Shown piece by piece: positions 39,235 through 62,919 of a stretch of DNA of 64,000 nt (position 1 is its first letter; each line of letters opens with the position of its first letter). The translations under genes were made by a program, and so were the position numbers. The notes below the pieces were generated by a model. It had not been told where the DNA came from. It made no database searches and was given only the letters and a program-made list of their open reading frames with translations. Where the stretch lies: assembly GCF_029873635.1 (NCBI RefSeq), contig NC_080423.1, positions 93,849,691-93,913,690 of the forward strand, written 5' to 3'. The DNA is from Malania oleifera. Its lineage: Eukaryota > Streptophyta > Magnoliopsida > Santalales > Ximeniaceae.

Positions 39235-39693
39235 ACCCCAAATATGCACAACGGAAATATTTATTTGTGTAAAGAATCAAACACACACTGCAGTAATCTA
39301 ATGGTGAATATAAAGAACAATCCACAACCAGGAATTAAAGCAATAACAATCACAAAGACACGGAGAATTACGTGGTTCGACAGTGCCTACATCTATGAGA
39401 GCAAACGATAAGGATTCACTATATTTTTGTATAAATTACAAGAGCAATATAAGAGCCCTCTTAATTTTTCTCAAAAATCATCAACCAACACATTTGACTT
39501 ACAATATACAATATATACTATGTACATATAAGCCTCCTTGGAGGTTTCCCCCAGAAACCCAACCATATTAACATCCATTTATTCAAAATTTGAAATCTGC
39601 GTTAGGCATCTCGAGCCAAACCATTGACTGATTGGGCCAAATCGTCGACTATTTAAAACATAATGTAAATTGTCTGAATTCTGGAGCCAAATA
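39235..39693 (-). repeat. Copia LTR, left copy, interrupted at 39694
   Basis: TGTGTAAAACACCCCAAATA onward is a same-orientation match to 46777-47255 (for example CAAACACACACTG, AGAATTACGTGGTTCGACA, AAGCCTCCTTGGAGG). The match stops exactly at 39694, where the gypsy LTR starts. The continuation seen in the right copy (GTCGACTATTTTCC) is missing here. Confidence 0.75.
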
Positions 39694-41860
39694 GGTAACG
39701 ACCTGAAATTTCTACTGTATATATATATTTCCACATAATAAATTATCATAATAACTCTGATACCATAATATACTAACAAAGTCAAAGTCAACCTGAACCC
39801 ATAGGTACCAGGTATATACCTGTCTATACATATATTTCATTTATGCAGCGGAAACTATAATTTACACAACCATATATATACAATACCAAAGTTCTACTAT
39901 GTCCATAAATACACATACATTCATCCCCAAAAAGAACCATAATATCCTAGGGTGATAACCCTAAAAATCCATCTTGAACACAACCCCACAACTCACCCTT
40001 CAAACAAGGTAGTATCAAACAACCTCCACTACCTCAGAGCTCAGTCCGCTCTTCTATTTGGGTTTCCTAAAATGTTTGTAATGCTGGGATGAGACACTTC
40101 TCAGTAAGGGATATTAATTAATATCAGTGTGTGACAACGTGAGTATCATTGTAATATAAATATATACTGAACATGGTATATTATATCTGTTAAATAAGGA
40201 AAACCAATACATAATTCAACTACATTTGATAAATCTGATAAAACTATTCTATATAAATCTATATAAATCATATTTCATATAACATCGGTATACATAAAAT
40301 CATCTATTATATCTGCATAATACTGAAATTACACCCTGGATGGATAGCTAGTTGATATCATGTATTACCCCCACATGACTAGGTTGTGCAGCCCGTAGGT
40401 GGGATCTAACAATGACTGGCCTACCATGCTAATTTAAATTGATAATTCTGTAAGTACGATTGGCTTGCCCAGCCTGGTCCGGACTACCAGGGGGCAACTA
40501 CTCCCACGCTGATGCACAATCGACTATCCAAACTCCCACACTCTATCTGAGATGTGTGGTAGCACTACCTGAACTGATAGCTACGGTACCATGCTCTGAA
40601 TCTAAACTAAGCCATCCGGACTCTACTATCATATAATACATTTCTCATAATATAATTATGTTCTTAAATAACATTTTCATATTTCATAAATAAAATTTAA
40701 CTTTTACATATTTCTGAATAAAAGCTGTCATTTCACAATTTCTGAATAAACTGCCATATTAAAATTGATCACGACATCTGCGCCGGCTGAATATCTCGAT
40801 ATCTGCACTGGCTGAATAATACAACATCTACACCGACTGAAAGTTACGGCATCTGCGCCGATTGAATATCATGATATATTGAAAATATAGTTATTATACT
40901 ATTTCTAGTTTTTCTGAAAACTGTCATTAAATCATGTTCGTTATGAAAAATCATAATATTATGATATATGATCATTTGCATAAATCTATACTCATGCCAC
41001 ACATAAATGGGTACTATACTATAACATATTGTCTAGTCTGAAATCATATAATTTCTAAAAAAATATTATTAAATCTATTTTTCAAAGTTTCCTTAGTTTC
41101 ATCACAGTATTTTAGTTTCATCACAGTATTCCCAAAGTATACATAATTTCTAAATTAAATACTAAATATTGGATAATGCATTTTCTGAAATACCTAACTT
41201 AGTTTATCCCATTACCTAGTTCTTGGGAAACCTGCTAAAATCCTAAACCACGCGTATGACATCCCAAAACTCCAATTCCTAAAATTAGATTAACTCCAAT
41301 TCAATCAACCCAAACTTCAGTATAAAACCTTCTAGTACATTTCCTAGGTCTATAAATAACTAATAATCAGGTAAAACCTAAAATAACTCACTTACCCTAA
41401 TTTTGGAATGGTGCCTAAGAACTCCAAACCAACAATCTGCTCTGACTAAGTTGTATAGAAATTCCCCAAGATCAACGTGGTAACTTCTGATCATCGAAAT
41501 GGGGAAAAATGGAGCTGAAATTGTAGAGAGAAGGAGGGAGAGCCGAAGTAGAGAGAGAAGATGAAGAGAGAAGTGAATTTCTTGCCAAGAAATCTGATTT
41601 TTCGCTATATATAGGTGGTTGTTCATATGGCCTTGTCGATGAGACACGTGTACTCGTCGATGAGTCACAGAAGGGTATTCGTCAATGAAGATAATGAGTT
41701 TGTCGACGAACCCTTAATGACCTGAATTCCTTGCTCTCGATATCTTCTCGTCGACGAACACGTGTACTTCGTCGACGGGATCTAAAAGGACGTTCGTCGA
41801 CGAGAACTCTGGGTTCGTCAACTATTAGTTCATAATCTAACAGTTACACCTCTAATCCAC
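39694..41860 (-). mobile_element. Long gypsy-like LTR, minus orientation
   Basis: Reading on the minus strand: a GTCGACGAA palindrome array (41830-41635), a TATA box CTATATATAG (41614-41603 region), and a GA/CT-rich leader. Then come a donor-like GTAAGTGAG at 41395, a 32-bp minisatellite (40865-40770), the motif CTTACTGAGAAGTGTCTCATC (40108-40087 region), an acceptor-like TTTTAG ending at 40067, and an end near CAGGTCGTTAC at 39694. It is homologous to the plus-strand copies at 42755, 55945 and 60783. The outer boundary at about 41860 is approximate. Confidence 0.65.
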
Positions 41861-41874
41861 ACAGTTTAACAAAT

Positions 41875-41995
41875 CATTGGGAAATAAAAGAATGCGTTGC
41901 CTCGGAATCAAATAATACAACAACTTTATGAGAAAGCATGTAAATGATACCCGTGATTACATCACCAGCATTCTTTGCGTCACCGGGAGTCAGAT
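41875..41995 (-). pseudogene. Gypsy aspartic protease remnant
   Basis: The minus strand encodes PGDAKNAGDVITGIIYMLSH, then KVVVLFDSEATHSFIS. This is the Ty3/gypsy retropepsin region, in which the usual FDSGATHSF active-site loop has Gly changed to Glu. Only about 40 codons remain between two LTR-like segments, so nearly the whole gag-pol has been deleted. Confidence 0.7.
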
Positions 41996-42754
41996 ATCAT
42001 CACATATCTCATATCCGTAGTACGACTGGCCAACCAAAAGCCTTGATTCGGACTCGGGGGGCACAACAACTCTACTATACAACTTAGTCGACTGTCACGT
42101 CACACGCTCCACGAGGCCATGTGGTTGCACTAACATCACTAGCAATGGTACGGTGCTCTCAATATCACAACCCATCATTAGGATTTCCATATCCATCAAT
42201 CAGGATTATCACTGCCTACTGGCATTTCACTAATCACATGTTTGTATTCCCCTTTCGGAATTTCACAAATCACTTCTCACAATTTAATATTCATATTGCA
42301 GAATTAACGGTGCAATATTCACATTTCACATATTCACATTTCCCATAATCATACTTCACATTTTCATATTGCAAAATTAACATTACAATATTTTCATTTC
42401 ACATATTCACATTTCTCATATTCATATTCCTCATATTCACATTTCTCACTTTCATATTGCAGAATTAACATTGCGATATTCACATTTTCAGTATTCACTA
42501 CTCATTTCATGAAATTCACATTTCTCAATAAAACCTTTCTATGTATCACATATTCATCATTTCTCAAAAGATGTTTATTTTTCAGTAGATATCACTTTCA
42601 ACATTTTCCCCCATTTCAAATCTCATATCTTAATTCATATTTTCAATAACCTCATTTCAACTTTCATAATTCATTTCATCAATTCAGTAATCACATTTCC
42701 ATGTACACATTTCAATATAAATCATATGTCACACAAATTTCATCTGATATATAT
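41996..42754 (-). mobile_element. Second minus-strand gypsy LTR, left part
   Basis: The text GTACGACTGGCCAACC, then the GGGGGGCACAACAACTC and GGTACGGTGCTCTC segments, parallels 40440-40600 of the neighbouring LTR. The rest is a run of TTCACATTTC-like repeats (42290-42700). It is interrupted at 42755 by a plus-strand LTR and resumes at 44926. Confidence 0.55.
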
Positions 42755-44925
42755 TGTAATGACTCGAAGAATAATGGTATTTAAATAATAAAAAAAAAAA
42801 GGAAAATGGTAACAAGAACGGAAGGAGGTAATCGACTTCGTCAACGAACTTGAATTGGATGGGATAATCATAAGAAATTTTTCAGGTCTCGTCAACGAAT
42901 ACAGGGGCTTCGTCGACAAGGGTTCTTCAGGATCTCGTTGACGAAGTTCCATCTCGTCAACGAGAAAATACCGAGAGAGGATTTTTGGAAGCCTGAAATT
43001 CGTCGATGAGGGTTGAAGTTCGTCAACGAACTTTTTACATGACTCGTTGACAAGGTGACGTGGCTCGTAGACGAATTCTGTAGTATAAATAGGGTTAAAC
43101 ATGATTTTTCAGTTCATTTTCTGCGCAAAACCTCTCTCTCTCTCTCTCTCTCTCTCATCCTTCGGTTCCATACCCTTCTCTCTAAGATCTCGGGCCGATT
43201 TTCTGCCAGTTCGACGATCTGAAGTCACCACGACGCTCTTGGGAAAGTTCTCTACAAGTCTGCCAGAACGGATCGTCGGTGGGGCTGAGTTGGAAACCAT
43301 CCCAAATCCACGGTAAGGTTTTCTACTCAGTATTTGCCTATTTGACAGTTGTAGAAAGTGTTGTACACGTAGAAATAATGAACTTTAGTTCTGGGGAAGT
43401 TGTTTTTAGGGTGTTGAATGGGAACCTTGCGAGTGAAGAAGTATTTCTCTTAGGGGCTTTTTAGGACTCAGGAAAGAGGATAAATTAAGCTAGTTCTTTT
43501 ATGAAAATGTATGTATATTATTACAACATTTGATTTCAGGAAAATAAATATATTTATATATGATTTATATTTGGGAAATACTGCTGAAAATGATGGTATG
43601 TTAAATATACGAAAAACTTGTTTTGTGTGGCATGAGTTGAAATTGATATGAAATACTATTTTCTGAGAATGTGTTAATGATACGGATTTTTATATTGGAA
43701 AACCAGCGTACGGGCCGAGATTTTGATATGATTTTTCGGCGTACAGGTCGAGTTATGTGTATGATTTGCCAGCGTACGGGCTGAGCTATGGATATGATTT
43801 GCCAGCGTATGGGCTGAACTATGTATATGATTTGCCGGCGTACGGGCTGAGTTATGAATGTGATTTGCCAACGTACATGCTAAGCTATGGATATGATTTG
43901 CCGGCGTACAGGCCGAGCTATGGTAAATGATTTTCATGATATACGTATATATGCAGAATGATATGATTGATTTGATAATTAATGATAAGAAATATTCATG
44001 TATCACAGTTTCAGTATATGTTATATGATATCAGAACCTGGTTGGCTTGGTCTAGGCTAGCACTTGCATGATACCGTTGCTATGTGTCTATGGTCATCAT
44101 GATCATGATATTTGTGTTAATGCCGCTGTACGGAGTGGTGTGAGATTGGATGGTTGATGTGGTTTTTAAGAAGTGTGCGAGCGCCCTTGGTGTACAGACC
44201 AGGTCTGGCAAACTCATCAGACTTACAGATTGTACTTTTGACTTGGCAGTGGTCGGCCAACCATTGTCAGGTCCCGCCTTCGGGCCACACAACCCAGTCA
44301 TATGGGGGTTATACATGACAACAACTAACTAACCTACTAGGAATATTTTTGTATTATATTTTATGAGATGAAATATGATTATGAAAATGCAGTATGTTCT
44401 GCCATGCTATGATGATATATATATACGTTTTCCCAAATATGACATGACAGTTTACTAAATATGTTTCTATATGATATATGTATAACACGGAATACTCATG
44501 TTGCCACACACTAGTATTGGTTTATTTCCTTTACTGAGAGGTGTCTCACCTCAAAATTTTATAAACATTTCAGAAGCCCCAGATAGGAGAATGGGAAAAG
44601 TCTCGCAGATTTAGTACTGTTGATCTGTCCTTCCAAAAGGGTAAGTGTTGATAGGGTCAGAAGTATTTTGTGGGATGACCCTAAAATATCTTTTGGGTTG
44701 TGTACTGTGTGTATATAAATACAGTGGTTGTAGTAACTCTGGTATTGTGATGTATGGTATAATGTGATGTTTATGATTGCATATTTCTTGCTGTTTAGGC
44801 TTCCGTTATGTGTTCTGATGTATTCCTGGTACCCATGAGTTCAGGTGGATTATGATCTGCTGAGTTTTGTGATATTGTATTTATATTATGGAACAAAAAT
44901 GTGGAAATTAAGCAGGTCGTCACAT
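42755..44925 (+). mobile_element. Solo LTR of the long gypsy-like family (2171 bp)
   Basis: It runs from TGTAATGACTCGAAG to CAGGTCGTCACA, with flanks TATAT and TTTAT (4 of 5). In order it holds the GTCGACGAA array (42830-43075), TATAAATAG (43084), a (CT)n run (43132-43156), donor-like CGGTAAGG (GT at 43313), seven 33-bp repeats (43697-43925), the 20-bp motif TTACTGAGAGGTGTCTCACC (44531-44550) and an acceptor-like CATTTCAG ending at 44573. It carries no coding domain and no second LTR, and is nested in another LTR. The minus-strand reading frame at 44006-43674 is only the 33-bp repeat translated. Confidence 0.8.
43697..43925. repeat. 33-bp minisatellite, about 7 units
   Basis: Units read GATTTGCCAGCGTACGGGCT followed by GAGCTATGGATAT with substitutions. 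GATTTGCC at 43763 and 43796 gives the 33-bp period. It lies inside the putative LTR intron. Confidence 0.9.
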
Positions 44926-45370
44926 TTATATCATAAATAAATTTTAGGTAAAATAACATAATTTCATTTTCACATAATAACTCATTTAGTATTTCTCAAA
45001 TCAACTATAATAATTTATTCCCCTCACCTGACTTACTAAGATTTCACAAAACACCCAATTTTTACGCACTTCAATGTTCGTGGCCCAAAAATTTGCAATT
45101 CATATTTTTCCCAAATTATTCAACACAACTCCCGTAGTAACTTCCATGTAACACTTCCTACATTTCATATACTCCAATTTAACTTAAAAACCCTAGAAAT
45201 ACACCACTTACCCTAATTTTTAGATGGTGCCCCAGAACCCCAAATTGAAAATTTACTCCACGTAGGTTACAGAGAATCTTCCCAGGAACCCCGTAATGGT
45301 TTCTGATCGTCAATCCGGGCTTAAATGAGGCCGAAATCGAAGAAAGAAAGAGAGAGGGTTCGTGCACTGC

Positions 45371-45448
<78 letters not shown>

Positions 45449-45840
45449 GAGATTTTGATTTCATGAAAATAAAATGGCTCTTAGTTTCCCCTTAAATGCC
45501 CACTGCAGAGAAAACCGTTGCCAGTTTTCTCCAGCTCTCAAAAAATCGTCGCTAGTTTTCCATTTATCGGTTCGATTTTAACTGTTTACTCGTCACCGCT
45601 TTGCGGTAAATACCAAAACCATCGTCGGTTTTCTGGCTCCTCTAGAAGACCGTCACCGATTTTCTCCTTCCCCAGCTAAAAATCACTTTTCCCCTTTTCT
45701 TTTATTATTTTATTTTCCTGAGTCTCTATATAAATGGTCGTGTGAGATGTATGAGGAATAAATGGGAATGGTGATAGTGTTGGATAGGGTGGTCTCTCAC
45801 CACGTGATCACCGGAGAGAACATTTGTAGTCTTACAGTAC
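44926..45840 (-). mobile_element. Second minus-strand gypsy LTR, right part
   Basis: It continues the LTR interrupted at 42755. On the minus strand it holds a TATA-like TTTATATAGAG (about 45735-45723), a long (CT)n run (45445-45373 as GA on plus) and a donor-like GGTAAGTGG at 45211. An array of ACCGTCGCCGGTTTT-like units lies at 45680-45520 where sister copies have GTCGACGAA units. The distal end near 45840 (TGTAAGACTAC on minus) is uncertain. Confidence 0.5.
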
Positions 45841-46389
45841 TCAATCAAAATAATTGGACAAGCTTTAAGCTCAAAGAAATTCTTCTCAATATTCAAAATA
45901 TCAACTCTGTAGAGTTCTTACAATGATTTAGAATATAAAGACTTAGCATGGGGGGACAATACATTAACTCTTACACAGGCATGGGGGGACAAAGCATGGG
46001 AAGCTAAACATGAGAAAACAAAATATTAAATAGTTACACTTAATTCTAACATAATAAACACTCTCACAACTTACTAAACTCACATGCTTATGCTTAGTTG
46101 ACTTATACTTAATACAATTAAAATATGAGACATGTATCAAAGGAAGGCCAAATCTGTGTGAGACCCATAAAGTCGCATGGGGCCCACATGGGTCTTGGAC
46201 TCGAACTTGCTTCAACATATCGACTGGGGTCTTCTCGTACTGAAAGTCTTCAAGTAGTCTTCAAATAACTCCATGCATACCTACAAAATAATTATGAACA
46301 AAAGTGGACATCGGGATGTCGTCCACGTGTCACCATGTCGGTGAAGGAAACAGTTAAGGCCCGTTGATCCCCATCAAAGTGTTGATATG
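45841..46389. other. Unclassified retroelement-derived DNA
   Basis: It lies between the gypsy LTR and the copia gag remnant. CTTTAAGCTCAAAGAAATTC and GTAGAGTTCTTACAATGA have the look of another LTR leader, but I cannot pair it with a second copy. No coding sequence is supported. Confidence 0.35.
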
Positions 46390-46757
46390 ATAATGCACAT
46401 CTGAACCCTACACCATCTTAAGCCAATACAGTTTTGCTTAAGAAAGAGTTTGTTCGATAAAGACTTAGACATATATCAGCTTTCCAGTTTACGCCAAACT
46501 GTTGCCGGAGAATCCATAAGACGTGATACAACACGTCATCAGGCAAACACAAACGGATAGTTGATACCGCATTTGCCTCCAATTCATTCCATGTTGTTTC
46601 ATCCATACTTTCCGGTTGAATTATATATAATGCCTTCTCCATCCCTTACTGCACCAAGAGATCCTTCACCCTTCTCCGCCACAAATCGAAATTCCTGGTT
46701 CCATCAAACTTGACAACGTAAAATTTCGCAAATGAAGATGTAGAGACCATTACAACA
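46390..46757 (-). pseudogene. Copia gag remnant
   Basis: The minus strand reads KFYVVKFDGTRNFDLWRRR, then VKDLLVQ*GMEKALYIIQPE and WNELEANAVSTIRLCLPDD. This is the start of a plant copia gag (KFDGxNFxLWxxRVKDLLVQQG) with a stop replacing one Gln. It sits directly after the primer-binding site and LTR on its right, so the element is in minus orientation. All of pol is missing. Confidence 0.75.
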
Positions 46758-46759
46758 GT

Positions 46760-46772
46760 GCTCTGATACCAA
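46760..46772 (-). other. Copia primer-binding site, minus strand
   Basis: GCTCTGATACCAA on the plus strand is the inverse of TTGGTATCAGAGC, complementary to initiator tRNA-Met. It lies four bases from the LTR end at 46777. Confidence 0.8.
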
Positions 46773-46776
46773 TTTT

Positions 46777-47330
46777 TGTGTAATACGCCCCAAATATGCA
46801 CATCAAAAATATATATTAGCATAAAGAATCAAACACGCACTGTAATAATCTAATGGTGAATATACAGAACAATCCACAACTACAGCAGGTAAATTAAAGC
46901 AATAACAATCACAAAGACACAGAGAATTATGTGGTTTGACAATGCATATATCCACGGGAGTAAATAGTAAGGATTCACTATATTCTTGGGTAAATTACAA
47001 GAGCAATACAAGAACCCTCTCAATTCTCTCAACAATTATCAACTAAAGCACTTGACTTACAATATATAACATATACTATGTATATATAAGCCTCCTCGGA
47101 GGTTTTCCCCCGAAACCCAACCGTATTAACGTCCATTTATTAATTTGAAATCTGTGCTTGGCATCTCGAGCCAAACTGTCGACTGATTGGGCCAACCTAT
47201 CAACTGTTTCAGACAGAATGTAAATTGTCTGAATTCTAGAACTAAATAGTCGACTATTTTCCTACTACTTCTTAGTACATGTGATTTTCTACTATGTTTT
47301 CTTCCTTGTTATGCAATTCATCAAGTATAT
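46777..47330 (-). repeat. Copia LTR, right copy
   Basis: It starts TGTGTAATACGCCCCAAATA and matches 39235-39693 in the same orientation. It continues past the point where the left copy is broken. The outer end near 47330 (ACACAACA) is a guess, since I could not confirm a target duplication with ACTGT left of 39235. Confidence 0.6.
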
Positions 47331-48028
47331 GAGCCACAAAAACACAACAACTACATTCCTAGTAAGATGTAATGTTTTGAGCATTAAAAAGTGTTGCTAA
47401 ATCTACTTTCCATTATTTATTAAAATACGGGTACAATCCTATTAAACGATATCCTATTACTTGCAGAAGTAGAGATAATTACATCCCATACCTACTGCAA
47501 CATTAAGTGCAAGTTCTGATTTGAAAAAATATTAGTAATAATAATGATATTCAACAAATAGGCTCCACCTGCATTAAGGACTTTGTTTGAAAAAGAAATT
47601 AAGAAGGATATCAAATTTTCATATGCAGAATACTATTTAGAATAAAATTATTCAAATATGATTAAAATTGCGTTCATTAGTTTATTTTGTGTGCATGTGC
47701 GTATTCATGTTCTTAACATGAAAATGAAAGTGTAAATTCCTTCAACCTAATGTTTATAAGGGAAATATATAAGGATTGGTAACAAGCAAACCATGCAAGG
47801 CATGTATGTGGCAAATACTAACTACTGTATGTGCTAATACAATGAAGGCAGAAAAGGAAAAAAACACTACAGGAAGGAGAATGGAATGCATTGGTGCACC
47901 TTCCCCACTTTTCCCAGTTCGAAGCAAACAGGAAAACTATGCACTAGAAATCTTAAAAGTGAAAATGGAATATAAACAACAACTTTCTTTTTTGTTCAAT
48001 AATAATTTTTGAGCCCAGAATAAATTTG
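47331..48028. other. Intergenic sequence and probable 3' UTR of gene B
   Basis: AT-rich. The part nearest 48028 is probably the 3' UTR of gene B. The plus-strand reading frame at 47776-48012 has no domain. No repeat or RNA gene recognised. Confidence 0.4.
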
Positions 48029-51000
48029 TTACAGCTGAAGTGCTAAATTGGCATGCTGAGCCCCTAAGGTGGATTGCTGTTGACTATGGAGGAAAGCCTG
48101 AGTGGTTGCCTCAGTTCGGCGGGCACGTGCAAAAGCCAGTTGTTGACTCATTTCATCAAAGAATCTTGACTCAGTGCCTGAATTTTGTTTCCCTGAAGGT
48201 TGCAGCATTTTATCCTGTTCTAAGGAATTCATCTGATTAAGACGTGACTCCAAGTATGGCAGGTTGAAAATGAACTGAGGCAGCACTGGAATGGGTGGCA
48301 CTGATTTTGAAGCCTGGCATGCCTCGGGCAAGCTACTGCCTCCGTCCTCACAGCCCAGTGCAGCTATGTCTTGATTCTTTCGACATGGGAATTGTGAATC
48401 CAGGTTCTGTGTGGAGGTACGGGGCCCACTGGGGCTCAAAAGCTCTGTGGTTTGTACACGACATGAATTGGGTGCAGGACTCTGATTGTTTTTCCTTGCT
48501 ATGTGTGTATTTGACGCAGGGTGCTCTGAAGCTGAGGCTGATGGCTGCACATGATGATCCAACTTGCCTGTGTTCAACATTGTTTGTGCATTTCTAGTGC
48601 TTCCTATCCACTGCACTGAAGCATCCTTTCCAGCACTAGGAGTTGATGAAGATGAACCAAACTGAATCTGAGTTTTTCGGCTCTCACAGACCGTCTGTTC
48701 TCTGAATTGACCAAAAACATCCACCACATCACTAGTTTGTTCATTATCAGCAAAGGCATGATGGTGATTCCTGGTGGTATTGTCAATCATTTCTCCAATT
48801 GAAGCACCAAAAAGGACTGGTTTATTAGTATGATAAGCCTTTGCTCCTTTGTCAGCATCACCCGTATCAATTCTGTTGCTGTTGTTTTCAAGGACAGTAG
48901 CATGCCCAGGAAGGTGCTCAATAGAATTGCAAGATCTTGGAGTAAGAGTAACAGTATTCAGAATACTAGGTCTCAATTGTGTGGCGTCAGAAGCTATAGG
49001 AAGTTGACATTTTGGAGCCTGAAACCAAAAGTTCGAAGTTGCAGTCTGATTCTCATAATAGCCTGCATGCCACCCCTGTAACTTTCGTTTGGCAATCTTC
49101 TGGGCTGTTGGTCCTAAATCTTTAGCAAACAGCATTAAGCTTTCTCTGTAACTAATGTCCTTCTGATCCACCTATCAAAATAAGAAGATCTAATGACCTA
49201 CACACTCCATAAGAAGTCCTACTTCTGAGAAGAAAAATATGATGATAACTAGTAAACGTTCTTAATTATTCCTCACAGCTGGACGGTTGGGATCACTTGA
49301 CAAATTCTTCCATGCCCATATATTGGACGGTGAATAAAATAAGCAGTCACAGAATGTCAGGAAAAATCATCCAATCAATGTGATTCTGGGGAAAGGAGAC
49401 ACCTTCATAAAGCCTTTTCTTAGGATGGTGCAAATACAACCACAGGCAATAGGCAGAAGGGCCTTGACCCTAATTATACTTTTCAATATTAAGAGGGTGG
49501 ACGCTGAATGATATATAAATCCTTTCTTATTATGAAAATAGCGCCTGAGAAATTTTGCCTTCATAGAATTAGGGGCATCCTCAAATAACTTTATGCACAT
49601 GATAAGCCCATACAACTTGGAAAGAATGTTTAGATATTTTAAGCATATATTTAGAAATGCATCAATCTACCTTGTTAATAAGTTTAAGCCCAAATGAAAA
49701 TCGAAAAGAAAAAAAGAAGAAAACCTTACTTGTGTAAGTGTTTTGGGGCTATTATAAACAGAGGACATTGAATTGTCCTCATTAACAGGCATCCATGGTA
49801 TATATGTACAACGCCGGTCTGCTGTGTTAAAACTAGATCTTTTGCCATCCCTAGTGCCTGTTCACAGAACCAAAAAAAAAAAAAAAAAGTCAGAAAGGAT
49901 TTAAACTTTGATTTTAATATGAATTCTGGCTAGTATGAGTGGAATAGACTGAAAGAAGTTTATGGAGTCATATTAAGGTCCAAAGCATCAATGCAATTAT
50001 ACCAGGTAATAGAAACTGCAGCTGAACTTTGGTCATCACAACTGAAATGAAAGTTGGAATTTCATGAAGATTCCATGAGACATAGAACTATTTCAATCAT
50101 AATTCCAAGAAGTTGAGTGCAACATATACTTAGAAGAGTAGGCCCCAGATCTTATGGTTATGGAACAATTGGGAAGAACTGGGAATAACTGGGAACTGAT
50201 GTGGCAATAACTGGGAAGAATAACTAAATAAGTAATGGCCTACATCTAAAGATTGGAATAACATGAAGATCCAACCAGCATTAAATCTTCCATAAAACTG
50301 CACCTTTTAGCTATCAGAAGGAGAACCAACAAAACAAAGCCTTTCACCCTTCTTTTCTCTTTTTCTTTTTTCTTTAGAGAAGATAAAGTAAGGCTTGTTA
50401 ATTTAACTATTATATCGTGAGAGGGTGCCCATAGATCGCATTTCCCAGGTCACTAGGTTGCATACTTAAAGAGCATAAAGATCTTAAGGAAAAAATGAAA
50501 GAAGAAAATTTTCTATCCATCCACTAAGAGATTGAGGCTATGAGTTGCAACTCCAAATGTGAAGTAAATTCTGTGAAAAGTAATGCTTCCTTTTTTATTA
50601 AAAAATAAAAATAAAATATTTGCCTTTTTCTCCTCCTGTTACTGGTTGGGATTATTTCTACAAGACTTCCAATGTAGGAGATGAGTTTAGTTAACATCTT
50701 TATTTTTTATAACTCATAAATAATCCATTATATCACTTGGCTCCCATGGAGATTGGGGGGGATAATTTTTCCTCACCAAGCCAAGGAACTAAATGTAATA
50801 GATCAATTTACACTTCTTACCATAAAAAGTTTCACGATCTCTTACGTCAACACGAGCAGCAGCACCAGAGTACCCCGGGTTTGACTGGACAAACCTCTTG
50901 AGATTCAATGGACTGCCTAATGAACATGGCATGTCCTTGTCTGGAACATCGAAAGCTATATTACTGGAGTCAATATTTCTAGCAAGTTTAGAACATGAGC

Positions 51001-54000: not shown

Positions 54001-54094
54001 CGTCGTCCTCCATTGCCTGTGTCCGTGTGGAATTTTGTGCGGATACAGAGTTGTGACTCGCACGCGCCGGTCGCTGGGCCTTCCATGCATCCAT
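48029..54094 (-). CDS. Bromodomain protein (gene B), 11 coding exons, 755 aa
   Basis: The coding exons in transcript order are 54094-53906, 53351-53247, 52727-52685, 52585-52538, 52424-52346, 52183-52138, 52043-51945, 51341-51273, 51139-50821, 49857-49730 and 49171-48029 (2268 nt with stop). All phases close, although the exon 2 donor (ATT|GTACTT) is weak. The bromodomain spans about residues 140-245: LPEKRILQLVLDILQRRDTY, IFAEPVDP, EDYYEIIKEPMDFGTMR and ISGNAMHFNSSATVYFRQA. Asn217 of HFN is the expected acetyl-lysine-binding residue and Tyr174/Tyr175 lie in the ZA loop. Residues 42-52 (RTRARKKIKLR) look like a nuclear localisation signal. A basic stretch TTRRRSGRRPQG follows the bromodomain. 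The C-terminal 380 residues are one large exon, polar and Gln/Ser-rich with no known domain. Bromodomains read acetylated histone tails, so a chromatin role is likely. The start is uncertain because a second ORF overlaps the first exon. Confidence 0.85.
51153..51171. repeat. G19 homopolymer beside a splice acceptor
   Basis: Nineteen G on the plus strand give C19 on the gene B transcript, ending about 13 bases before the exon 9 acceptor (TTTTTTTCAG|GCTCGT at 51140/51139). Confidence 0.9.
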
Positions 54095-55944
54095 GGCGCA
54101 GATTCGTGGGCTCCTCCTCTGCCCATCTTTCCACGCTGATCTTTGTAATTTTCTGCAACACCCACATTGGAAATTGCATTACTCTGAATTCTCATAGCTT
54201 CTTTCACAAGTACATTTTCTAGCATCGAGGTAAAAAAAAAAAAAAAACCTAAAAGCAAAAGTGTGGAAAGGAATGTCTTCAAAATATATCAGAAGCACAC
54301 CTCGACATTTTTGCGAACCGAGAGCAAGAACTCAGAACTTTTGGGTTTTTTTTTATTTTATTTTTTCCTCCTCTAAAGAAAAGGGGGAGGGAATGGTAAT
54401 GGAGTGATTGACGCAGATGAATCTTTTGCTTTATAAAGTGAGAAAGGAAGTGATAATTGTTGCATCAGAGGAGATACAGCTGAGGGTGGCTTGTTTTGCT
54501 GAAATTGGAAGATATGGTAATCCCGCAAAAAGGAATAACATTAAACCCCAAATAGCCGTTTCATTCGATGATCAATGCTGAATGCTGAATGCTGATGCCG
54601 CTGCTGCTTCTTCTTCTTCGTTTTGTTCGGGGATCAATGACCCTTTCCCTCCAAACACAGCAGAGAGAGAGCCAGAGAGAGATCAGCAATTTACATTTTG
54701 CAAAACCTCTGGGTCACATCACACTATCCGATGGAAGGGTTTAAGGACGTCAAAAGTGTGGGCGAAAGGCGAATTAATCTCATTATCACAAATGCGATGA
54801 AAATTATGAAATGAATAGGCTAGCGAAGATTGGACAACGCGATTTGAAGAAGCGTCCCCTGACGCGCCAACCATGAAACGTGGAATATGGACAAAGTTCC
54901 CAAACAGCGCCTTAAGAATTCAAGAGATTGTGTGGGTAATAAAAAAAGAAAAGGAATAAAATAAAATTCACTATTTGTAAGAAAGAGGAAAGCTACTTTC
55001 ACCGACGGGTCACCTAACAATTTCTTCTTCACTCTGTTCTGCCTCAAAAAATAAAAAATTTTAAAAAATAAACCAATGTAGCCCATCGTGCAGGAGAAAT
55101 TAAGAAAAGATTAAGGCTCCGAACTCTAATAGATTTCCTAGATTATATGTAGGTTTTATCAAGTAGTAATTACATAGGTTTGGAGTAATTTTATAGGCAA
55201 AGAGGTTGGAAGATTTGGCTTATCTTTCCAATAAAACCTAATTTTTTTTCACACCTCTAGAACGTGTGCGAGTCAGTCGATACTATTTTTATTCTTATTG
55301 GTTGAATGTTTTACAATCAATTTGTGATGCCATCAATATGATCTTCAAGAATTACATTTGGGTATCTACAAAGAATAAGAGAAGTGCTCATTTTGTTATA
55401 TGAGATTCAATCACGACCCCCAAAAAAATTGGAGGATTGGGTCATCGATGCATTCACCATAATAACATAACGTTGTTGGAAAAATTGTCTTGTGATATCG
55501 TACTAAATGTATATAAAACCTAGTTGAATTTTATGAAGACTAAGTATTGAAAAGAAGATTTTTTTTTCCTCTTATACGACATCAATCTACCCATCAATAT
55601 TTGGAACTCAATGATGATTCATCAAGGATGGATTTAGGTTCAAAATGGGGGATGAGCAAAAATTTTTAAGTTTGATGTTTGGTTGGAGATTGAACCTCAA
55701 TAAAATTGGGTGAAGATAGAATGACACCTAAAAGTTAAAAATATTAATTCTAATTGTGGTAACTAGGATTTGAGCACATCTCATCTATGATACATCTGGA
55801 TTACAACATGTCATTATATTGACATCATTAGCTTGTCGGGTGCAATTAGAGGACTCATTTTATAGATACTTTGCTAATTATATGATTTATAGCTTAAGAG
55901 ATGTCTACTAGTGGTTGACTTGCCTAGGGATGGATAGGGGTAAC
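54095..55944. other. 5' region of gene B and AT-rich flank
   Basis: A TGTTGCAG just upstream of the first coding exon (near 54158) suggests a 5' UTR intron, so the transcription start is probably further right, around 54300-54700. The plus-strand reading frame at 54582-54800 is unsupported. 54900-55944 shows no gene; a weak LINE-like flavour at 55260-55560 (KNYIWVSTKN) could not be confirmed. Confidence 0.35.
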
Positions 55945-58900
55945 TGTAATAACCCTAAAAAGGGCTATACAAGATTGGTGGAGTGATTCCTAAATAAAAA
56001 TAAATAAAATAATTAATTAGTTAATTAAATTTTAAAAAAAAAAAGAAAAAAAGAATTGAAATTTATTTTTATTTTTATTAATAAAATATATTATTATTAA
56101 TATTAATTAAATATTATTATTATTATTATCATTCCTAGGAATGAAATTTGAAGAGAGATCCGCCCCACCCTTCTTCCTTTTCTATCTGTGCAAGAGCCCT
56201 GCACGGTCTCTCTCACTCCTCTCATTCTCTCCCCCTCTCTCCTCAATTACGTGACAAATTTTCGTCCGATCAAAAATCGAAAGATACCGCTAGACTCTAT
56301 TCTCCGCTGCCGTCATTTCTACCGGAGCAGATCGGTGGCAGGAGTGGCGTAGGCGTATCTCTTGGGGTAAACCAATTTCCCCTTTTTCTTTAATTTCTTA
56401 TAAATTATAAGTCCAATCGACGAACGGACACCACCACAAGAATTTAGGGATGATTCTCTACAAGTCTAGTAGGACAGAATTCTCGTGGGATAGTCGTGGG
56501 TAAAACCCCAAATTTAGGGTACAGGGTTATTAAGGAGCTTATTTTTAATTAATTGAGATTAATTTAGAAATACTAAAATGTTGAGCATTTGGAGTTAAAG
56601 CGAAATTTTTGGAATTTAGGAATCGAGTGAGCGCCGCGGGTGTAATTTTGGGACCCGCAAGCAAAATTCAGAAAATTAAGTGGGACTGTTAAATGTTAGT
56701 TTAAATATTAATTTGAGGTAAATGAAGCTTAGGGAAGGTTAGATGGGTATTATTTTGGAGAAATAGATTAATTAATCTAGGGAAAATGTAAATTGAAGGA
56801 GTTGAATTTCGGGCGCCAAGGGCGTAGGAGTTGGGGTATTAACGAGACTCTCAGTAAGCCAGGTAAGGGAAATAAATTATAACATTATTTTTAGAATTGT
56901 TGTTTAAATTAATATGTGAAAATGAGCATATGGTATTTTCCTTGAAAATGATTATGATATAAATATTAGATAAATTATGTGGCATCTGAGTAATATTAAA
57001 TTGTGAATATTAAATGAAGACTGTGTGGTATATGACTTATATTGAAAAATGTGAAATATAACAACGTGTATTTTCTGAGAAAATATTGAAACGAGAATGA
57101 TTGATGTGATTAGTGAAAAAAAATGAAATGTGATATTTATGCATGAGTAGAGATTCTTTGCATGAAAAATAAGTTTGTACAAATTACTAATATGAGTATT
57201 TTGGGAAATGTGAAAATACGTGAAATATGATATATATTATTATGAGATGATGTAATGCGCATAGAAAATAATGAGAATATTTATATTGAACTGAATTGTG
57301 ATTTACTAAAACATGATTGATGAAATGTCAATACCGCATAATGATTGCGGGTAGGTGATATTCCTTTCCTATTGATGCCATTGGGGAGGTATGCTCAGTA
57401 TGGAGACTGTGTGTGCGTGCGAAGTTCCTACTGATGTCGTTGGAGAGGTATGCTCAGTATGGAGACTATGTGTGTGTGCGAAGTTCCTACTGATGTCGTT
57501 GGAGAGGTATGCTTAGTATGGAGACTATGTGTGTGTGTGTGTGTGCGAAGTTCCTACTGATGTCGTTAGGGAGGTATACTCAATATGGAGACTCTGTGTG
57601 TGTGTGAAGTTCCTACTGATGTCGTTGAGGAGGTATACTTAGTATGGAGACTGTGTGTGTGTGTGCGAGTTCCTACTGATACCATTGGGGAGGTATGCTC
57701 AGTATGGAGACTGTGTGTGTGTGTGTGAAGTTCCTACTGATGTCATTAGGGAAGTATGCTCAGTATGGAGATTGTGTGTGTGTGCGAAGTTCCTACTGAT
57801 GCCGTTGGGAAGGTATGCTTAGTATGGAGATTGTGTGTGTGTGAGAAGTTCCTACTGATGCCATTGGGGAGGTATGCTTAGTATGGAGACTGTGTGTGTA
57901 TGTGAAGTTCCTATTGATGCCATTGGGGAGGTATGCTCAGTATGGAGACTGTGTGTGTGTGTGAAGCTCCTACTGATGTCGTTGGGGAGGTATGCTTAGT
58001 ATGAAAATTGTGTTGTGAAGTTCCTACTGATGCCGTTGGGGAGGTATGTTCAGTATGGAAATTGTGTTGTGAGATTCCTACTGATGTTGTTGGGGAGGTA
58101 TGCTCAGTATGGAAATCGTAAATGTGTCGAAAATTGGAATTATGTGATCTAATGTAGTATGTAAAGTATATAAATGTGAATTTATGTATACATAGATATG
58201 TAATGAGTTAAAATGGGAAATGATTATGAAAAATGAAAGAGTGTGTGTTTTATAAAATAAATAATTGAGGCGAAGTGAAACTCTCCACCTGAGAGATTAC
58301 TGAGTAAGGTGAGTGCCCCGATAGGTATCAGATGTGGTCATTCTTGGCAGCATAATGTGTTAGGGCAGAGGGAAGCTACCTGTATGGGCGGGCAATCTTC
58401 CCTATTCTTAGGAACTTTGTAGGAAATTATGTGTGTTGTAAATGAATAAACTTGAGTAATGGTTTTAAAGTTATAAAAACTTGTGTTATATATCTATATG
58501 ATTATGAGAATGTGAATATCAGTGTATTTTCTCAGATGAAATGTTGTTTTGAAAAGTAAAGTATGTTATAACTGAACTCATTTGGCCACACACTGTAAAT
58601 AATTTGTTCCTTCTTACTGAGATGTGTCTCACCCAAATTATCTAATTTTTTAAGGAAATAGAGACCGACCGGGGGATAGAGCTCCGTGATTATAGGGAGC
58701 TGGAACCCTGATATACAGAGTGAGTTTGGACTAGGGAAGTGTGATTCCCTAGAGTTGTATTGTTTTTGGGTATGAGATAGTATTGTGTATATATGTATGT
58801 TGATACTCTGGGTATTGTATTCTGACTTATATATATATAGTCTTCCGCTGTTAGATTTTATAAATAAAATGACTTTACCCAATACCCAATACAAGTCGAG

Positions 58901-59018
58901 TCGTACGAATGGTAGTAGGGTTGTTGACATGGCTGATTTGTGGATGTTTTGGATGACAAGTGATTATTTATTTATTATTGGGAAAAAAAAAATTTGTACA
59001 AAAAATTGGGGCGTCACA
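55945..59018 (+). mobile_element. Solo LTR of the long gypsy-like family (3074 bp)
   Basis: It runs from TGTAATAACCCTAAAAAG to GGGGCGTCACA and is flanked by a perfect 5-bp duplication GTAAC (55940-55944 and 59019-59023). It contains a pyrimidine-rich segment (56200-56245), a leader TTCTCTACAAGTCTAGTAGG shared with the sisters, a donor-like CCAGGTAAGGG (GT at 56863), and a 13-copy minisatellite (57360-58115). The motif TTACTGAGATGTGTCTCACC (58614-58633) and an acceptor-like TTTTTTAAG follow. No GTCGAC array is present in this copy. No coding domain and no partner LTR. Confidence 0.85.
57360..58115. repeat. Minisatellite of about 13 units, 54-66 bp
   Basis: Each unit holds TTCCTACTGATG(T/C)CGTTGG, then GGAGGTATGCTCAGTATGGA and a (GT)n run of variable length, which causes the period to vary. 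It lies inside the putative LTR intron. Irregular spacing and the embedded (GT)n rule out a CRISPR array. Confidence 0.92.
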
Positions 59019-59341
59019 GTAACTTTGAATTTGGAAGTACAAATTCTCTCAAAAGTTTAAAATATTTTTTTTGTTTGCATATCATGGATAGTTTTTTACT
59101 AGTGAATATCCTATAAAACTTAATTTAGTTGACTCACGTTGTTGTGCTTGGTGTATGGGTAGACTTGAAGATATTCTACATCTTCTTTGGGATTGCTAAA
59201 AGGCCAAGGAATTTTGGTTTGGCTTTCTTTTTATGCTCTTCCATCAAAACTTCTTCATTCAAGGTCTTGACCATTGATAAAAGGACGATCTTCCTACAAC
59301 CTCAAAGGGGAGAATCTCCCAAGGGCCTTCATCATTACTTG
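59019..59341. other. Short gap with weak LINE resemblance
   Basis: The region after the solo LTR reads CAYHGYVFTSEYPI-like text only loosely, with LPRLEDILHLLWDC-like wording near 59150 that recalls zf-RVT. I do not claim a gene. Confidence 0.25.
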
Positions 59342-59891
59342 TTAGGTAGTTTGAAGGATGTAGAGTGCTAAAGTCATAGAAAGAATATATTCTTCAATCT
59401 TTTCTCAATTGTTGTAGATAAAAGGATTGATGTTGGCCTGGTAGTATGTCTAGAGGGAGGGTGAATAGACTTTCTTCAGTGATGTGATTACTTTCTACAA
59501 GCACAGAAATCTTACCAAGAGCAAGTGCATAAAATTGTTGTGTAAAAGGAAATGTAACAAATCACAATAACAATATAAATGAGATAAGAGAGAAGAAAAG
59601 CTTAACACATTGATATTTAGGTAGTTTGAAGGATGTAGAGTGCTAAAGTCATAGAAAGAATATATTCTTCAATCTTTTCTCAATTGTTGTAGATAAAAGG
59701 ATTGATGTTGGCCTAGTAGTATGTCTAGAGGGAGGGTGAATAGACTTTCTTCAGTGATGTGATTACTTTCTACAAGCACAGAAATCTTACCAAGAGCAAG
59801 TGCATAAAATTGTTGTGTAAAAGGAAATGTAACAAATCACAATAACAATATAAATGAGATAAGAGAGAAGAAAAGCTTAACACATTGATAT
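59342..59891. repeat. 275-bp near-identical tandem duplication
   Basis: Copies at 59342-59616 and 59617-59891 differ at one position by eye (GGCCTGGTAG versus GGCCTAGTAG). The near identity points to a very recent event or an assembly duplication. Confidence 0.95.
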
Positions 59892-60782
59892 TTATGTGGT
59901 TCAGCACCCTGCCTACGTCCACGCCTTGAGACCAACTCAAGGATTCCCAAAATCCACTAAAATCCTCCTTCGGGCGGAGAAGCCAATACACACCAGCTCA
60001 CAAAGAGCTTCAACAAGGTGCTCACTTAGAGACACCCAAAAGGTTCTTTTTGTCCTTTTAAGTTTCTAAGAAGGTTCTTGTCCATTTGGGGGTTTCTTTA
60101 TATACTTAAAAATGACTTTACTAGTATTTTGTTGTGCGTGTGTGATATGCCTCTTTCTTGCTCTTAGTATTGAGTTTCACTTTATGTACAAGATATTTAC
60201 AAGATAATATCTCTCTTATTTTACACACTTATTTTTCAGATGACTTTTGTACATTTGTTGTATTGTTCATGAATGCTTTGAGAGACTTGTGCTTCTGGTC
60301 ATGACATGAGTTGTTTTGACTGCTTGTTGGTTCAGATGCCATTCTGTATACTTGAAACATATCTTAGAGAAACGTTAGTAACCTTGAGAGCAACTAATGG
60401 GTTGATAACATCAAAACATAGTAGGAATGAAACACCTTTAACTATTTGGTTTAACAATTGACAAAAGACTTTGATATGAATTTTGGTCTTTATCGTATCA
60501 ATTTGTCTTCTTGTATGTAGTTTAGAATAGTTAAATCCTGCTAACAATAGCCGAAGGAAGATAAATATTGACAGTAGATCTCAAGACAATTCAAAGTAAG
60601 ATGGAACTAGTGGTCTCATGAGGGATCATGTTAACCTTATAGGCTACACCATCATTGTTTAATGTGTTTTGATGATATTAAACTATATGTTGTTCTTAAT
60701 ATTTTCCTATCTTTGTAGATCATGTTTAGTACAGACACTCATACATGAATTATTGGATCGAAGGCAAAGATCGGGCCGAGTA
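59892..60782. mobile_element. Unclassified retroelement DNA, left of solo LTR
   Basis: ATGTGGTTCAGCACCCTGCC (59894) and CCTTCGGGCGGAGAAGCC have the same character as 32345-32440 in the RTE insertion. The stretch is interrupted by the solo LTR at 60783 and seems to resume at 62920. No domains are seen. Confidence 0.4.
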
Positions 60783-61098
60783 TGTAAGAACCCGAACTGT
60801 TATATGTGGAGTTGATTTTGTAAAAGAGGGGTAAAATGTAAATTTTGCAGGCTTCGTCGACAAAGCAAGAATTCATCGACGAAGGTAGTAGGATTTTCGT
60901 TGACGAAATTCAGAGGTTCGTTGAGGAAGGAAAGCCGAGAGGGGGAAAATTGGAAATATCAGACTTCGTTGACGAAGTCGCCGATTACTCGACAAAACGC
61001 AGAATTTTTCATCGATGAATACACCTTTTCGTTGACTAAATCCCTCAAGTTAAAGGTCTATAAAAGGATATTTTAGGGGTTGCTTAGCTCCTAAGTTT

Positions 61099-61155
<57 letters not shown>

Positions 61156-62919
61156 GATTCCTTTGCCGTTTGTCACCGAAATTACAAATCCAAAGTTACT
61201 GTGAGAATTAGTGAAGGATTCTCTACGTTTCTAGTGGATCAGAATCTCGATTCGAGCGTTTTCGGGTTTCAGGGGCAAAAATCGAGGTAAGGCTCGATTT
61301 TCATTTCTGATTCAGTATATGTGTAGTGATATGGATTGTAAGTATGTTATGTACTGGGGTTTGTAGATTTCGGAGTCTCAGTTCGTAGTTTTGAGAGATG
61401 TAAAGTTCGTAGTTGGATTTTGGGTTAAGGTAAGGGGATTCTGTTTATATCAGTCTATTTCTGAAATCAGGATCGGTAAGCCTGTAGGCTACGATCGTAT
61501 GTATGTTTTGACTACTTATTTGGGAAAATTTATTGGGTAAAAATGCGGGATTTTCGGGTTACAATTTTTTGAGAAAATCGGGGATTTCGGGTATCATCTC
61601 TATTTTGTTTGGAAAACAGTTGGTTGCGTTTTAAACTGTATTATTGAGGTGACCGTAATCCATATTTGCATAAACTGTATACTTGAAATTGTAAATGATA
61701 TGATTTGTCGTAAACCAAATAAGTGTGGTATGTATGGTTGTATGAAATTGTTCCAGGTATTTGTAAAATAGTTATGTGGCGGTTAATTACCGTACGGTGA
61801 AATGTATAGGAACGTGAGTTCCAAAATGATTCCAGATTTTGTAAAATCAGCTATGTGGCGGCTAATTACCGTACGTCGAGAGTGGCCGGCTTTATATCCG
61901 AGGGTGTGAAATATCACCAGTCTAATTTCGGTTGGTCACCGAAGTGGTGTGAGCTATATTCTACATCGTATGTTGCAATGGATTCATAGTGGGCCTAGGT
62001 CGTCGCAGCGTAGTTGGCACGTGGCAATGTAATCAGGGTGAGATTAGGTGACCTTATGTAGTTGCGTATGTAGCAATGGATTCACTATTGGGCCTGAGTT
62101 GTAGATCTTCGTAGTTGCATGTGTAGAAACGTAATCGTTGTGAGACTAGGTGACCTTGTGTAGTTACGTATGATGCAATGGATTCACCATTGGGCCTTGA
62201 TCGTCGCAACGTAGTTGCGTATGTAGCAATGTAATTGCTGTGAGACGAGGTGACCTGGTGTAGTTGCAAACTAGTGTGATGACACTGACCGTATGTATGT
62301 ATGTATGTATGTATGTTGGGTATCGTATGAACTGGAATGGTTTTTGTGAAAATACTGGAACTGTATGGAAATGTATGGAACTGTTTTGAAATTGTACGAA
62401 TTGTTTCAAACTGTATCGTATGTATAGTGTTTTGAAGTATGTAAAATGACACTGGTATGTCACACACTGATATAAACTATTTTCTCCCTTACTGAGAGGT
62501 GTCTCACCCCGAATATATACAAATGTTTTTCAGGTCCTTCGGGTAACCGAAACTAGCATCCTAGCATCCGGAAGCGGGGGTGTGGTTTGGCTACTACTAG
62601 TGCCTGGTAGGTACAAGTTTTTGTAACCGGGTTGTCGTAATGGATTTTGTAGACACTTGTAGTATGTATGGTATTCATAGGGATGTTTACCCTAGTATGT
62701 ATAGACTTTGGTATGGTACAGTTTTTGTATAGAAAGATCGTTTTCCAATGCGTATTATGGATGAGTATGAATGGTTGTATGTATGTATGTGGACATCCGT
62801 CACCCCACGGGGTCGGACCCTTTTTGTATGTTGTATCATGTATGTTTTAATTGATACAGAGACAGGTTAGGATACTTAAATTCACCCCTAGGTCCCATTT
62901 CTGGGTTCGGAGCGTGACA
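60783..62919 (+). mobile_element. Solo LTR of the long gypsy-like family (2137 bp)
   Basis: It runs from TGTAAGAACCCGAACTG to GGAGCGTGACA with a perfect 5-bp duplication GAGTA (60778-60782 and 62920-62924). In order it holds a GTCGACGAA-type array (60850-61040), TATAAAAGG (61059), a (TC)n run (61101-61152), a donor-like GAGGTAAGG (GT at 61287), a three-copy repeat of about 100 bp (61970-62270), a (GTAT)n run (62291-62316), TTACTGAGAGGTGTCTCACC (62489-62508) and an acceptor-like TTTTTCAG ending at 62533. Reading frames at 62054-62467 are repeat translations. Confidence 0.88.
61970..62270. repeat. About 100-bp tandem repeat, three units
   Basis: GCAATGGATTCA starts at 61975, 62073 and 62175, each time followed by GGGCCT, a GTAGTTG segment, and TGAGA(C/T)(T/G)AGGTGACC. 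Confidence 0.85.

Follow-up and report, generated by a model that had tools for sequence, protein, structure and literature searches.

How a single LTR-element transcript can act both as messenger and as genome is an open question. According to the accessible text of the 2005 description of the soybean element Diaspora, no intron upstream of gag was then known in any LTR element, and the extended length of LTRs was difficult to account for (PMC1142308). A 64,000-nt stretch of the Malania oleifera genome (NC_080423.1, 93,849,691-93,913,690; GCF_029873635.1), hereafter the window, holds several copies of an LTR in which splice-site-like sequences recur in the same order. We consider it likely that these LTRs contain the 5′ portion of a leader with two introns, an arrangement that would separate a spliced mRNA lacking the PBS from an unspliced genome RNA.

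The sequence-only reading had described four LTR copies (c1-c4 in Table 1), each with a possible leader intron and a shared 20-nt motif. All four are real: the motif is present in each with at most 2 mismatches (0 in 100 shuffles), the donor and acceptor letters are correct, and the intron lengths of 1329, 1261, 1792 and 1247 nt agree with the positions given for them. A fifth copy, c5, on the minus strand and split by the nested c2, had been missed; it breaks off before the acceptor and, at its low end, passes into a fragment of a gypsy protease. The donor assigned to c3, CAG/GTAAGG at 56863, lacks homology to the other donors and falls within a stretch that can be aligned to c5; the homologous site is the weakened one listed in Table 1. 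The window copies represent diverged subfamilies (c1 and c2 are 60% identical), and a complete internal region is absent from all of them. Neither c1 nor c2 has a clean target duplication, and a matching one was absent from c1 on inspection by eye.

Table 1. Features of the LTR copies in the window. Donors are given by their first intron base; a slash marks the putative exon-intron border.
Copy	Feature	Position	Strand	Remarks
c1	LTR copy	39694..41850	-	start near 41850, end 39694; BLAST match to c2 over nearly full length, 60%
c1	TATA-like box	41606..41613	-	218 nt upstream of donor 1; transcription start putative
c1	donor 1	41395	-	AGG/GTAAGT; in register with c2, c4, c5
c1	putative intron 1	40067..41395	-	1329 nt; 44 ATG
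c1	conserved motif	40088..40107	-	2 mismatches; motif search
c1	putative exon 2	39997..40066	-	70 nt; 0 ATG
c1	donor 2	39996	-	AGG/GTGAGT
c2	LTR copy	42755..44924	+	nested in c5
c2	donor 1	43313	+	ACG/GTAAGG
c2	putative intron 1	43313..44573	+	1261 nt; 61 ATG
c2	intron 1 minisatellite	43703-43933	+	33-bp unit
c2	conserved motif	44531..44550	+	exact
c2	putative exon 2	44574..44640	+	67 nt; 1 ATG
c2	donor 2	44641	+	AGG/GTAAGT
c5	LTR copy	41862..45840	-	two pieces (45840-44925 and 42754-41862), c2 between; outer ends approximate
c5	donor 1	45211	-	AGG/GTAAGT; homologous to donor 1 of other copies
c3	LTR copy	55945..59018	+	solo; target duplication GTAAC
c3	site homologous to donor 1	56519	+	AGG/GTACAG; weakened
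c3	conserved motif	58614..58633	+	1 mismatch
c3	acceptor	ends 58654	+	TTTTTTAAG; AAG type, weaker than YAG of other copies
c3	putative exon 2	58655..58719	+	65 nt
c3	donor 2	58720	+	AGA/GTGAGT
c4	LTR copy	60783..62919	+	solo; target duplication GAGTA
c4	putative intron 1	61287..62533	+	1247 nt; 46 ATG; donor GAG/GTAAGG, acceptor TTTTTCAG/G
c4	conserved motif	62489..62508	+	exact
c4	putative exon 2	62534..62610	+	77 nt; 0 ATG
c4	donor 2	62611	+	TAG/GTACAA; weak

The LTRs belong to the Ty3/gypsy chromovirus group. They run from TG to CA, with 5-bp target duplications in c3 and c4, and a PBS of the TGGTATCAGAGC type adjoins the 5′ LTR; most of the 12 copies examined have it 2-3 nt past the LTR end. 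Retrotrans_gag, RVP_2 and RVT_1 domains were found in one genome copy (L055), and an integrase-end chromodomain (Chromo PF00385, E 1.4e-06, above the cut-off) in another (L026). This end resembles that of the Tekay/Del clade, a candidate placement, and rice Retrosat2 may belong to the same lineage as the present LTRs.

In the host genome, the single plant genome covered, the exact motif occurs 15,931 times (0 in a reversed control), and genome copies were collected through these exact matches; copies L002-L009 contribute to none of the results. In a sample of 48 copies, 5 without a leader match were dropped from the donor 1 count; GGTAAG is present at donor 1 in 32 of the remaining 43 (67/2619 control windows), while 11 differ from it. 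To compare diverged copies, 25 representatives less than 80% identical to each other were picked by alignment, from 46 aligned copies, after removal of those with a leader score under 10 and then of close relatives. The GGTAAG columns have a mean majority identity of 0.88, compared to 0.64 for the preceding exon and 0.57 for the following 40 intron bases. The claim that the borders are selected while the intron body is free to vary is thus borne out at the donor, whose columns are the best kept.

The sites might instead be common only because the copies are young, with no constraint maintaining them. Many copies are indeed close, namely: one LTR pair is 99.08% identical across 2065 aligned positions, and the gag matches among those listed are 80-100% identical. 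However, the median pairwise identity of the representatives across the donor region is 0.48, and the splice-site columns are nevertheless the best kept, which leaves this explanation barely credible.

Downstream of the motif, a T-rich YAG (acceptor 1) follows in 44 of 48 copies (control 626/2880; c5 was left out of the acceptor counts). In the genome copies, this acceptor is followed after 56-74 nt by another conserved donor (donor 2), and the LTR would therefore contain a short internal exon. Given acceptor 1, donor 2 is found in 32 of 44 copies (control 56/626) and is missing in the other 12; among 21 diverged representatives, acceptor 1 is present in all 21 and donor 2 in 16. When the exon 2 sequences were clustered at 75%, all fell into a single cluster. 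Intron 1 varies from 918 to 1654 nt in the 25 of 48 copies that have all sites, and arrays of period 12 or more occur inside it in 26 of 39 genome copies. These arrays had been thought unique to each copy, but related genome copies carry units of 29-34 bp like those of c2, and the arrays are shared within subfamilies.

In copies that bear gag, the site order ends with an acceptor at the gag ATG. Two of the 12 PBS-bearing copies (L052 and L060) have no gag start and were excluded; in all 10 others the acceptor abuts the ATG. Excision of intron 2 would thus take out the tail of U5, the end of the LTR, the PBS and the leader. Two gag-anchored samples, each of 20 copies taken by hand from at least 150 places listed per gag search, contain donor 2 in 18/20 and 14/20 copies; the gag acceptor is AAG in 7/20 copies of one sample and is altered in 5/20 of the other. 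Support for a leader intron whose borders are selected and whose body is free, as first read, is thus partial, because among the four donors of that reading one is non-homologous, its minisatellites are not copy-specific, and its intron is one of two. The probable function of the system changes as well, given the second conserved donor and the acceptor at the gag ATG.

The distribution of ATG triplets bears on this function. Across 19 genome representatives (2 of 21 were dropped because their leader match was too distant), ATG is depleted in exon 1 (15 vs. a shuffle mean of 44.3) and exon 2 (3 vs. 19.9) and enriched in intron 1 (802 vs. 512.0). In the window, intron 1 of c1-c4 contains 44-97 ATG, and each of their exon pieces 0-1. 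It should be noted that exon 1 is not free of ATG, with 20 in 5000 nt of the 25 copies having all sites. Descent alone does not explain this depletion and enrichment. The same pattern also argues against the conserved sites serving packaging, RNA structure, transcription-factor binding or poly(A) control with an accidental likeness to splice sites, since the sequence is exon-like between the sites and intron-like inside. Such another role could account for a 20-nt motif kept beyond the needs of a branch point and able to form a hairpin, but it would have to produce four sites of the right kind, order and polarity at variable spacing, and we regard it as decidedly improbable.

We infer the splicing of both introns from conservation. 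In the two-intron model, transcription would start ~190 nt upstream of donor 1 (among the 12 representatives listed, 4 yielded no TATA box). The spliceosome would excise intron 1, ~0.9-1.65 kb and wholly within the LTR, and intron 2, ~0.6 kb, running from U5 past the end of the LTR and across the PBS and stopping immediately ahead of the gag ATG. The product would have a leader of ~260 nt with the gag ATG at or near the first AUG, and this RNA, spliced twice and without the PBS, is probably the message for gag-pol. The unspliced RNA would retain dozens of upstream AUGs together with the PBS and act as genome, as only this RNA could rebuild an LTR that still contains intron 1. The weak donor 1 and acceptor 1 of c3, and the weak donor 2 of c4, count against the model, as do the genome copies in which one site is missing or altered, the residual ATGs of the exons and the representatives in which no TATA box was found. 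By a narrow balance, we favour its extension to a dominant plant chromovirus lineage, in which an mRNA with a doubly spliced leader would be the sole source of Gag-Pol. Both donors and the internal exon would lie in the LTR, the second splice would delete the PBS and land on the gag start codon, and splicing would switch an RNA irreversibly from genome to messenger. Retroviruses make Gag from unspliced RNA, and the proposed switch is the inverse.

Genomic DNA was also searched for the joined exons. The sequence spanning exon 1 and donor 1 has 9,849 sites in the genome, while the joined form of exons 1 and 2 has 6 (control 8); the RNA that replicates would therefore be unspliced at intron 1. 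The unspliced donor 2 sequence has 1,433 sites and the joined form of exon 2 and gag has 0. The lack of spliced joins in DNA is equally expected without any splicing. In the one subfamily tested, no trace was found of LTRs with a precise loss of intron 1. This bears on a further alternative, namely that only intron 1 is spliced and acts as a promoter-proximal booster of expression (intron-mediated enhancement), with donor 2 and the gag acceptor little used and gag translated from RNA in which intron 2 remains. Intron 1 does have the most regular donor, close to the TATA box. However, donor 2 equals donor 1 in regularity among the representatives, the gag ATG is adjoined by an acceptor, intron 2 contains 17-23 ATGs in each of 8 copies measured, and an RNA retaining the PBS could have yielded the intron-less LTRs that were not seen in that subfamily. 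We therefore consider this alternative unlikely.

The two-intron model resembles several described systems in part. In the open-licence literature searched, as far as its text was available, the only intron placed upstream of gag or entirely within a plant LTR was the one predicted for Diaspora. For Diaspora, a Ty3/gypsy element on the Athila/Calypso side, donors were predicted in the LTR at 1400-2200 bp ahead of gag-pol, with acceptors on either side of the start codon of gag, a layout alike in outline. Unlike the present case, these were program predictions for a single family, called of unknown relevance; the available text describes no cross-copy conservation, internal LTR exon or ATG test, and the Diaspora PBS matches tRNA-Asp, whereas the present element is a chromovirus (PMC1142308). 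Barley BARE1 (Ty1/copia) has distinct RNA pools for translation and replication with splicing in the translated pool, but, in the text available, its 104-nt intron at the gag end yields a Gag-only message, and what sets the pools apart is promoter, cap and poly(A) rather than PBS removal (PMC3735527). In Arabidopsis EVD/EVADE (Ty1/copia), splicing likewise splits RNA fates, though the intron lies in gag-pol and yields a short GAG, and leader splicing is not described in the accessible text (PMC8892269, PMC12786077). Its intron-keeping RNA is retained in the nucleus and thus offers a precedent for the proposed model (PMC8892269). Ogre, BAGY-2 and CRR are plant Ty3/gypsy elements with spliced transcripts, but splicing occurs between ORFs, to env, or removes rt, and the available text describes none upstream of gag (PMC3735527). 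Retrosat2 (Ty3/gypsy) has a very long LTR of 3.3 kb with an R region of ~2 kb, whereas in the accessible text of its paper "intron" has 0 occurrences and "splic" a single one, in the title of a reference (PMC3485330). A December 2025 review, in its available parts, treats Ogre and EVADE as exceptions among plant LTR elements, which it regards as generally free of introns (PMC12786077). A family of thousands of copies with four conserved splice sites would answer both the missing introns upstream of gag and the long LTRs. If true, the extended model would provide the first demonstration of an intron upstream of gag in any LTR element and might account for the multi-kilobase LTRs of several plant Ty3/gypsy families. 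An intron and an exon lying wholly within solo LTRs could also supply nearby host genes with new first exons.

The donor, a branch-point-like sequence and the T-rich YAG acceptor occur in the order of a GT-AG intron. The motif itself contains two branch-point-like sequences, CTTAC and CTCAC, resembling the plant branch-point pattern, and a potential 5-bp hairpin. We would guess that it tunes the splicing of intron 1 and leaves enough RNA unspliced. Six motif strings were absent from the text of the open-licence literature searched, and the motif had 0 matches in the viral_contigs collection; one match in a Lactococcus contig was taken as chance. Near-complements of the motif, spotted by eye beside 56863 in c3 and in c5, might allow long-range pairing with it.

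Comparison of the LTR copies gives good support to a conserved leader with two putative introns, in the order exon 1, donor 1, intron 1, motif (a conserved 20-nt sequence), acceptor 1, exon 2, donor 2, intron 2 and gag ATG. A sequence-only reading had described four LTR copies in the window (c1 to c4) and a possibly spliced leader intron with selected borders and copy-specific minisatellites. The four copies are present as described and each carries the motif, which shuffled sequences never gave. c1 and c2 are 60% identical over almost the entire LTR; c3 and c4 can be aligned to other copies mainly in the leader and near the motif. In the leader alignment, donor 1 stands in register as GGTAAG in c1, c2, c4 and a further copy, c5, and as GGTACAG in c3. 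The c3 donor first proposed is not homologous to these; it lies 344 nt beyond the homologous site, within a segment aligning to c5.

Genome-wide, the exact motif has 8,001 + 7,930 occurrences (reversed control, 0). Among the matches listed, 48 motif-anchored copies were studied, all from the 4.4 Mb at the start of contig 1. A leader profile that stops 20 nt short of donor 1 matches 43 of the 48, two of them more weakly than E = 1, and 32 of these 43 have GGTAAG in the next 60 nt (control windows, 67/2619), at an offset of 19-21 in all but one (31 of 32). For conservation analysis we used 25 representatives less than 80% identical, namely: 21 genome copies and c1, c3, c4 and c5 (median pairwise identity 0.48). 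Majority identity averages 0.88 in the GGTAAG columns, 0.64 in the preceding exon and 0.57 in the following 40 intron bases.

Acceptor 1, a T-rich YAG, is found 14-34 nt past the motif in 44/48 copies (control, 626/2880), and donor 2 (GTRAG, usually AGG/GTAAGT or AGG/GTGAGT) 45-85 nt beyond it in 32 of the 44 acceptor-bearing copies (control, 56/626). The 21 diverged genome representatives, which were picked from copies with a leader match, all have acceptor 1, and 16 have donor 2. The succession of an acceptor and a conserved donor thus points to a short exon within the LTR, between two introns. In the 25 copies where it was measured, this exon is 56-74 nt long.

Intron 2 would run from the LTR across the PBS to an acceptor at gag. 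Among 12 PBS-bearing copies read downstream of the LTR, 10 have a recognisable gag start and, by eye, all 10 have YAG plus one purine immediately 5′ of the gag ATG. The other two (L052 and L060) differ in internal contents: the PBS is present and the gag start is absent in the stretch read, with other open frames further along in L060. These are possibly non-autonomous relatives or nested insertions. In eight copies with both ends called by script, intron 2 measures 591-676 nt and holds 17-23 ATGs. Independently of the LTR anchor, we sampled 20 of 150 listed places, spread over contigs, from each of two gag searches. The first sample has acceptor 1 and donor 2 in 18/20 each, the exact motif in 15/20, and YAG (13/20) or AAG (7/20) before gag. 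The second has acceptor 1 in 15/20, donor 2 in 14/20 and the exact motif in 8/20; YAG precedes the ATG in 11/20 by the script rule (purine before ATG) and in 15/20 by eye, i.e. four more with C, and is changed in 5.

The domains Retrotrans_gag, RVP_2 and RVT_1 in one copy (L055), and SH3_Tf2-1 and Chromo at the pol end ahead of the 3′ LTR in another (L026), identify the element as a Ty3/gypsy chromovirus, possibly of the Tekay/Del clade. One LTR pair is 99.08% identical across 2065 aligned positions; the family has therefore moved recently.

Start codons are unevenly distributed over the leader. Twenty-five copies have donor 1, acceptor 1 and donor 2; in these, the 200 nt upstream of donor 1 hold 4.0 ATGs per kb and exon 2 holds 1.2, against 16.4 and 14.7 expected from base composition, and intron 1 holds 37.1 against 18.2. 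In 19 representatives, the counts for exon 1, exon 2 and intron 1 (15, 3 and 802; shuffle means 44.3, 19.9 and 512.0) lie beyond every one of 500 shuffles. The window copies c1 to c4 agree, with 1, 0, 1 and 0 ATGs in the 180 nt upstream of donor 1 (the homologous site being used throughout for c3), 0, 1, 0 and 0 in exon 2, and 44, 61, 97 and 46 in intron 1. Among exon 1 trinucleotides of the 19 representatives, GTA (10) is scarcer than ATG (15), AGT (47) and GAT (74), which would be consistent with additional donors being avoided along with start codons. A TATA box lies 217-222 nt upstream of donor 1 in 6 of 12 listed representatives; 2 have it at another position, and the remaining 4 gave none. 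In c1, c2 and c4 the distance is 218-229 nt. Where the box can be placed, this spacing implies a near-constant length for exon 1, unlike intron 1 (918 to 1654 nt).

Leader splicing would probably serve as a switch between messenger and genome. RNA spliced at intron 1 only would retain the PBS and, if copied, would yield LTRs without intron 1. The genome-wide junction searches covered one abundant subfamily. There, the exon 1-donor 23-mer matches 9,849 sites at ≤3 mismatches (control, 4); the joined exon 1-exon 2 23-mer has 6, below the reversed control (8), and the two inspected are unrelated sequence. The 44-nt exon 1-exon 2 join gave none, and the exon 2-gag join 0, at a stringency where the unspliced donor 2 23-mer gave 1,433 (control, 2). 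Copies of this subfamily therefore arose from RNA in which intron 1 had been kept; this agrees with separate RNA pools, yet is also what the absence of splicing would produce.

Plant LTR elements with introns are known. In a review of late 2025, Ogre and EVADE are given as the notable examples (PMC12786077), though sunflower elements also have spliced isoforms (PMC7730604). In BARE1, the RNAs for translation and replication differ in promoter, cap and poly(A), and a Gag message is produced by splicing (PMC3735527). In the accessible open-licence literature on these elements, to which our search was confined, so that an earlier report may exist, we could not find PBS removal by splicing or this leader mechanism described.

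The motif, treated here with MINISATELLITES and the intron 1 tandem arrays, occupies the expected branch point position and includes CTTAC and CTCAC, which fit the plant branch-point pattern. The three variants tried fold as a 5-bp hairpin. Near-identity between subfamilies suggests an additional role; our guess is that the motif controls how efficiently splicing proceeds. Intron 1 carries tandem arrays in 26/39 copies, with units common to related copies; the intron body is thus free to vary, as proposed, and the minisatellites are not unique to each copy. In c3, TCTCAGTAAG, the exact complement of CTTACTGAGA within the motif, stands immediately before the donor first proposed; c5 has TCTTAGTAAG at the corresponding place, then CAG/GTGAGG. 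This site could be an alternative donor of the c3/c5 subfamily, or could pair at long range with the motif.

Features of the window (G000:C7:93849691-93913690; genome of 1.494 Gb, 510 contigs) and of two further copies
Feature	Position	Observation
c3, c4		Clean solo LTRs (5-bp target duplications)
c5		Fifth LTR copy, interrupted by c2
Stretch with TCTCAGTAAG and the donor first proposed, c3	56842-56868	
Stretch with TCTTAGTAAG, c5	~45045-45020, minus	
Direct repeats	39224-39694, 46776-47249	83-88% identical, ~7.55 kb apart; apparently arms of another element framing c1, c2 and c5
c1 boundary	39694	Coincides exactly with end of first direct repeat
Tandem repeat	59342-59901	275-bp unit, present twice at 98% identity in the c3-c4 interval
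Open frames	26004-28913	CCHC zinc knuckle and Ty1/copia-like reverse transcriptase stretch (by eye)
Family LTRs L028, L029	C1:1953284, C1:1960687	7.4 kb apart, PBS after each; as if elements head to tail with one LTR in common
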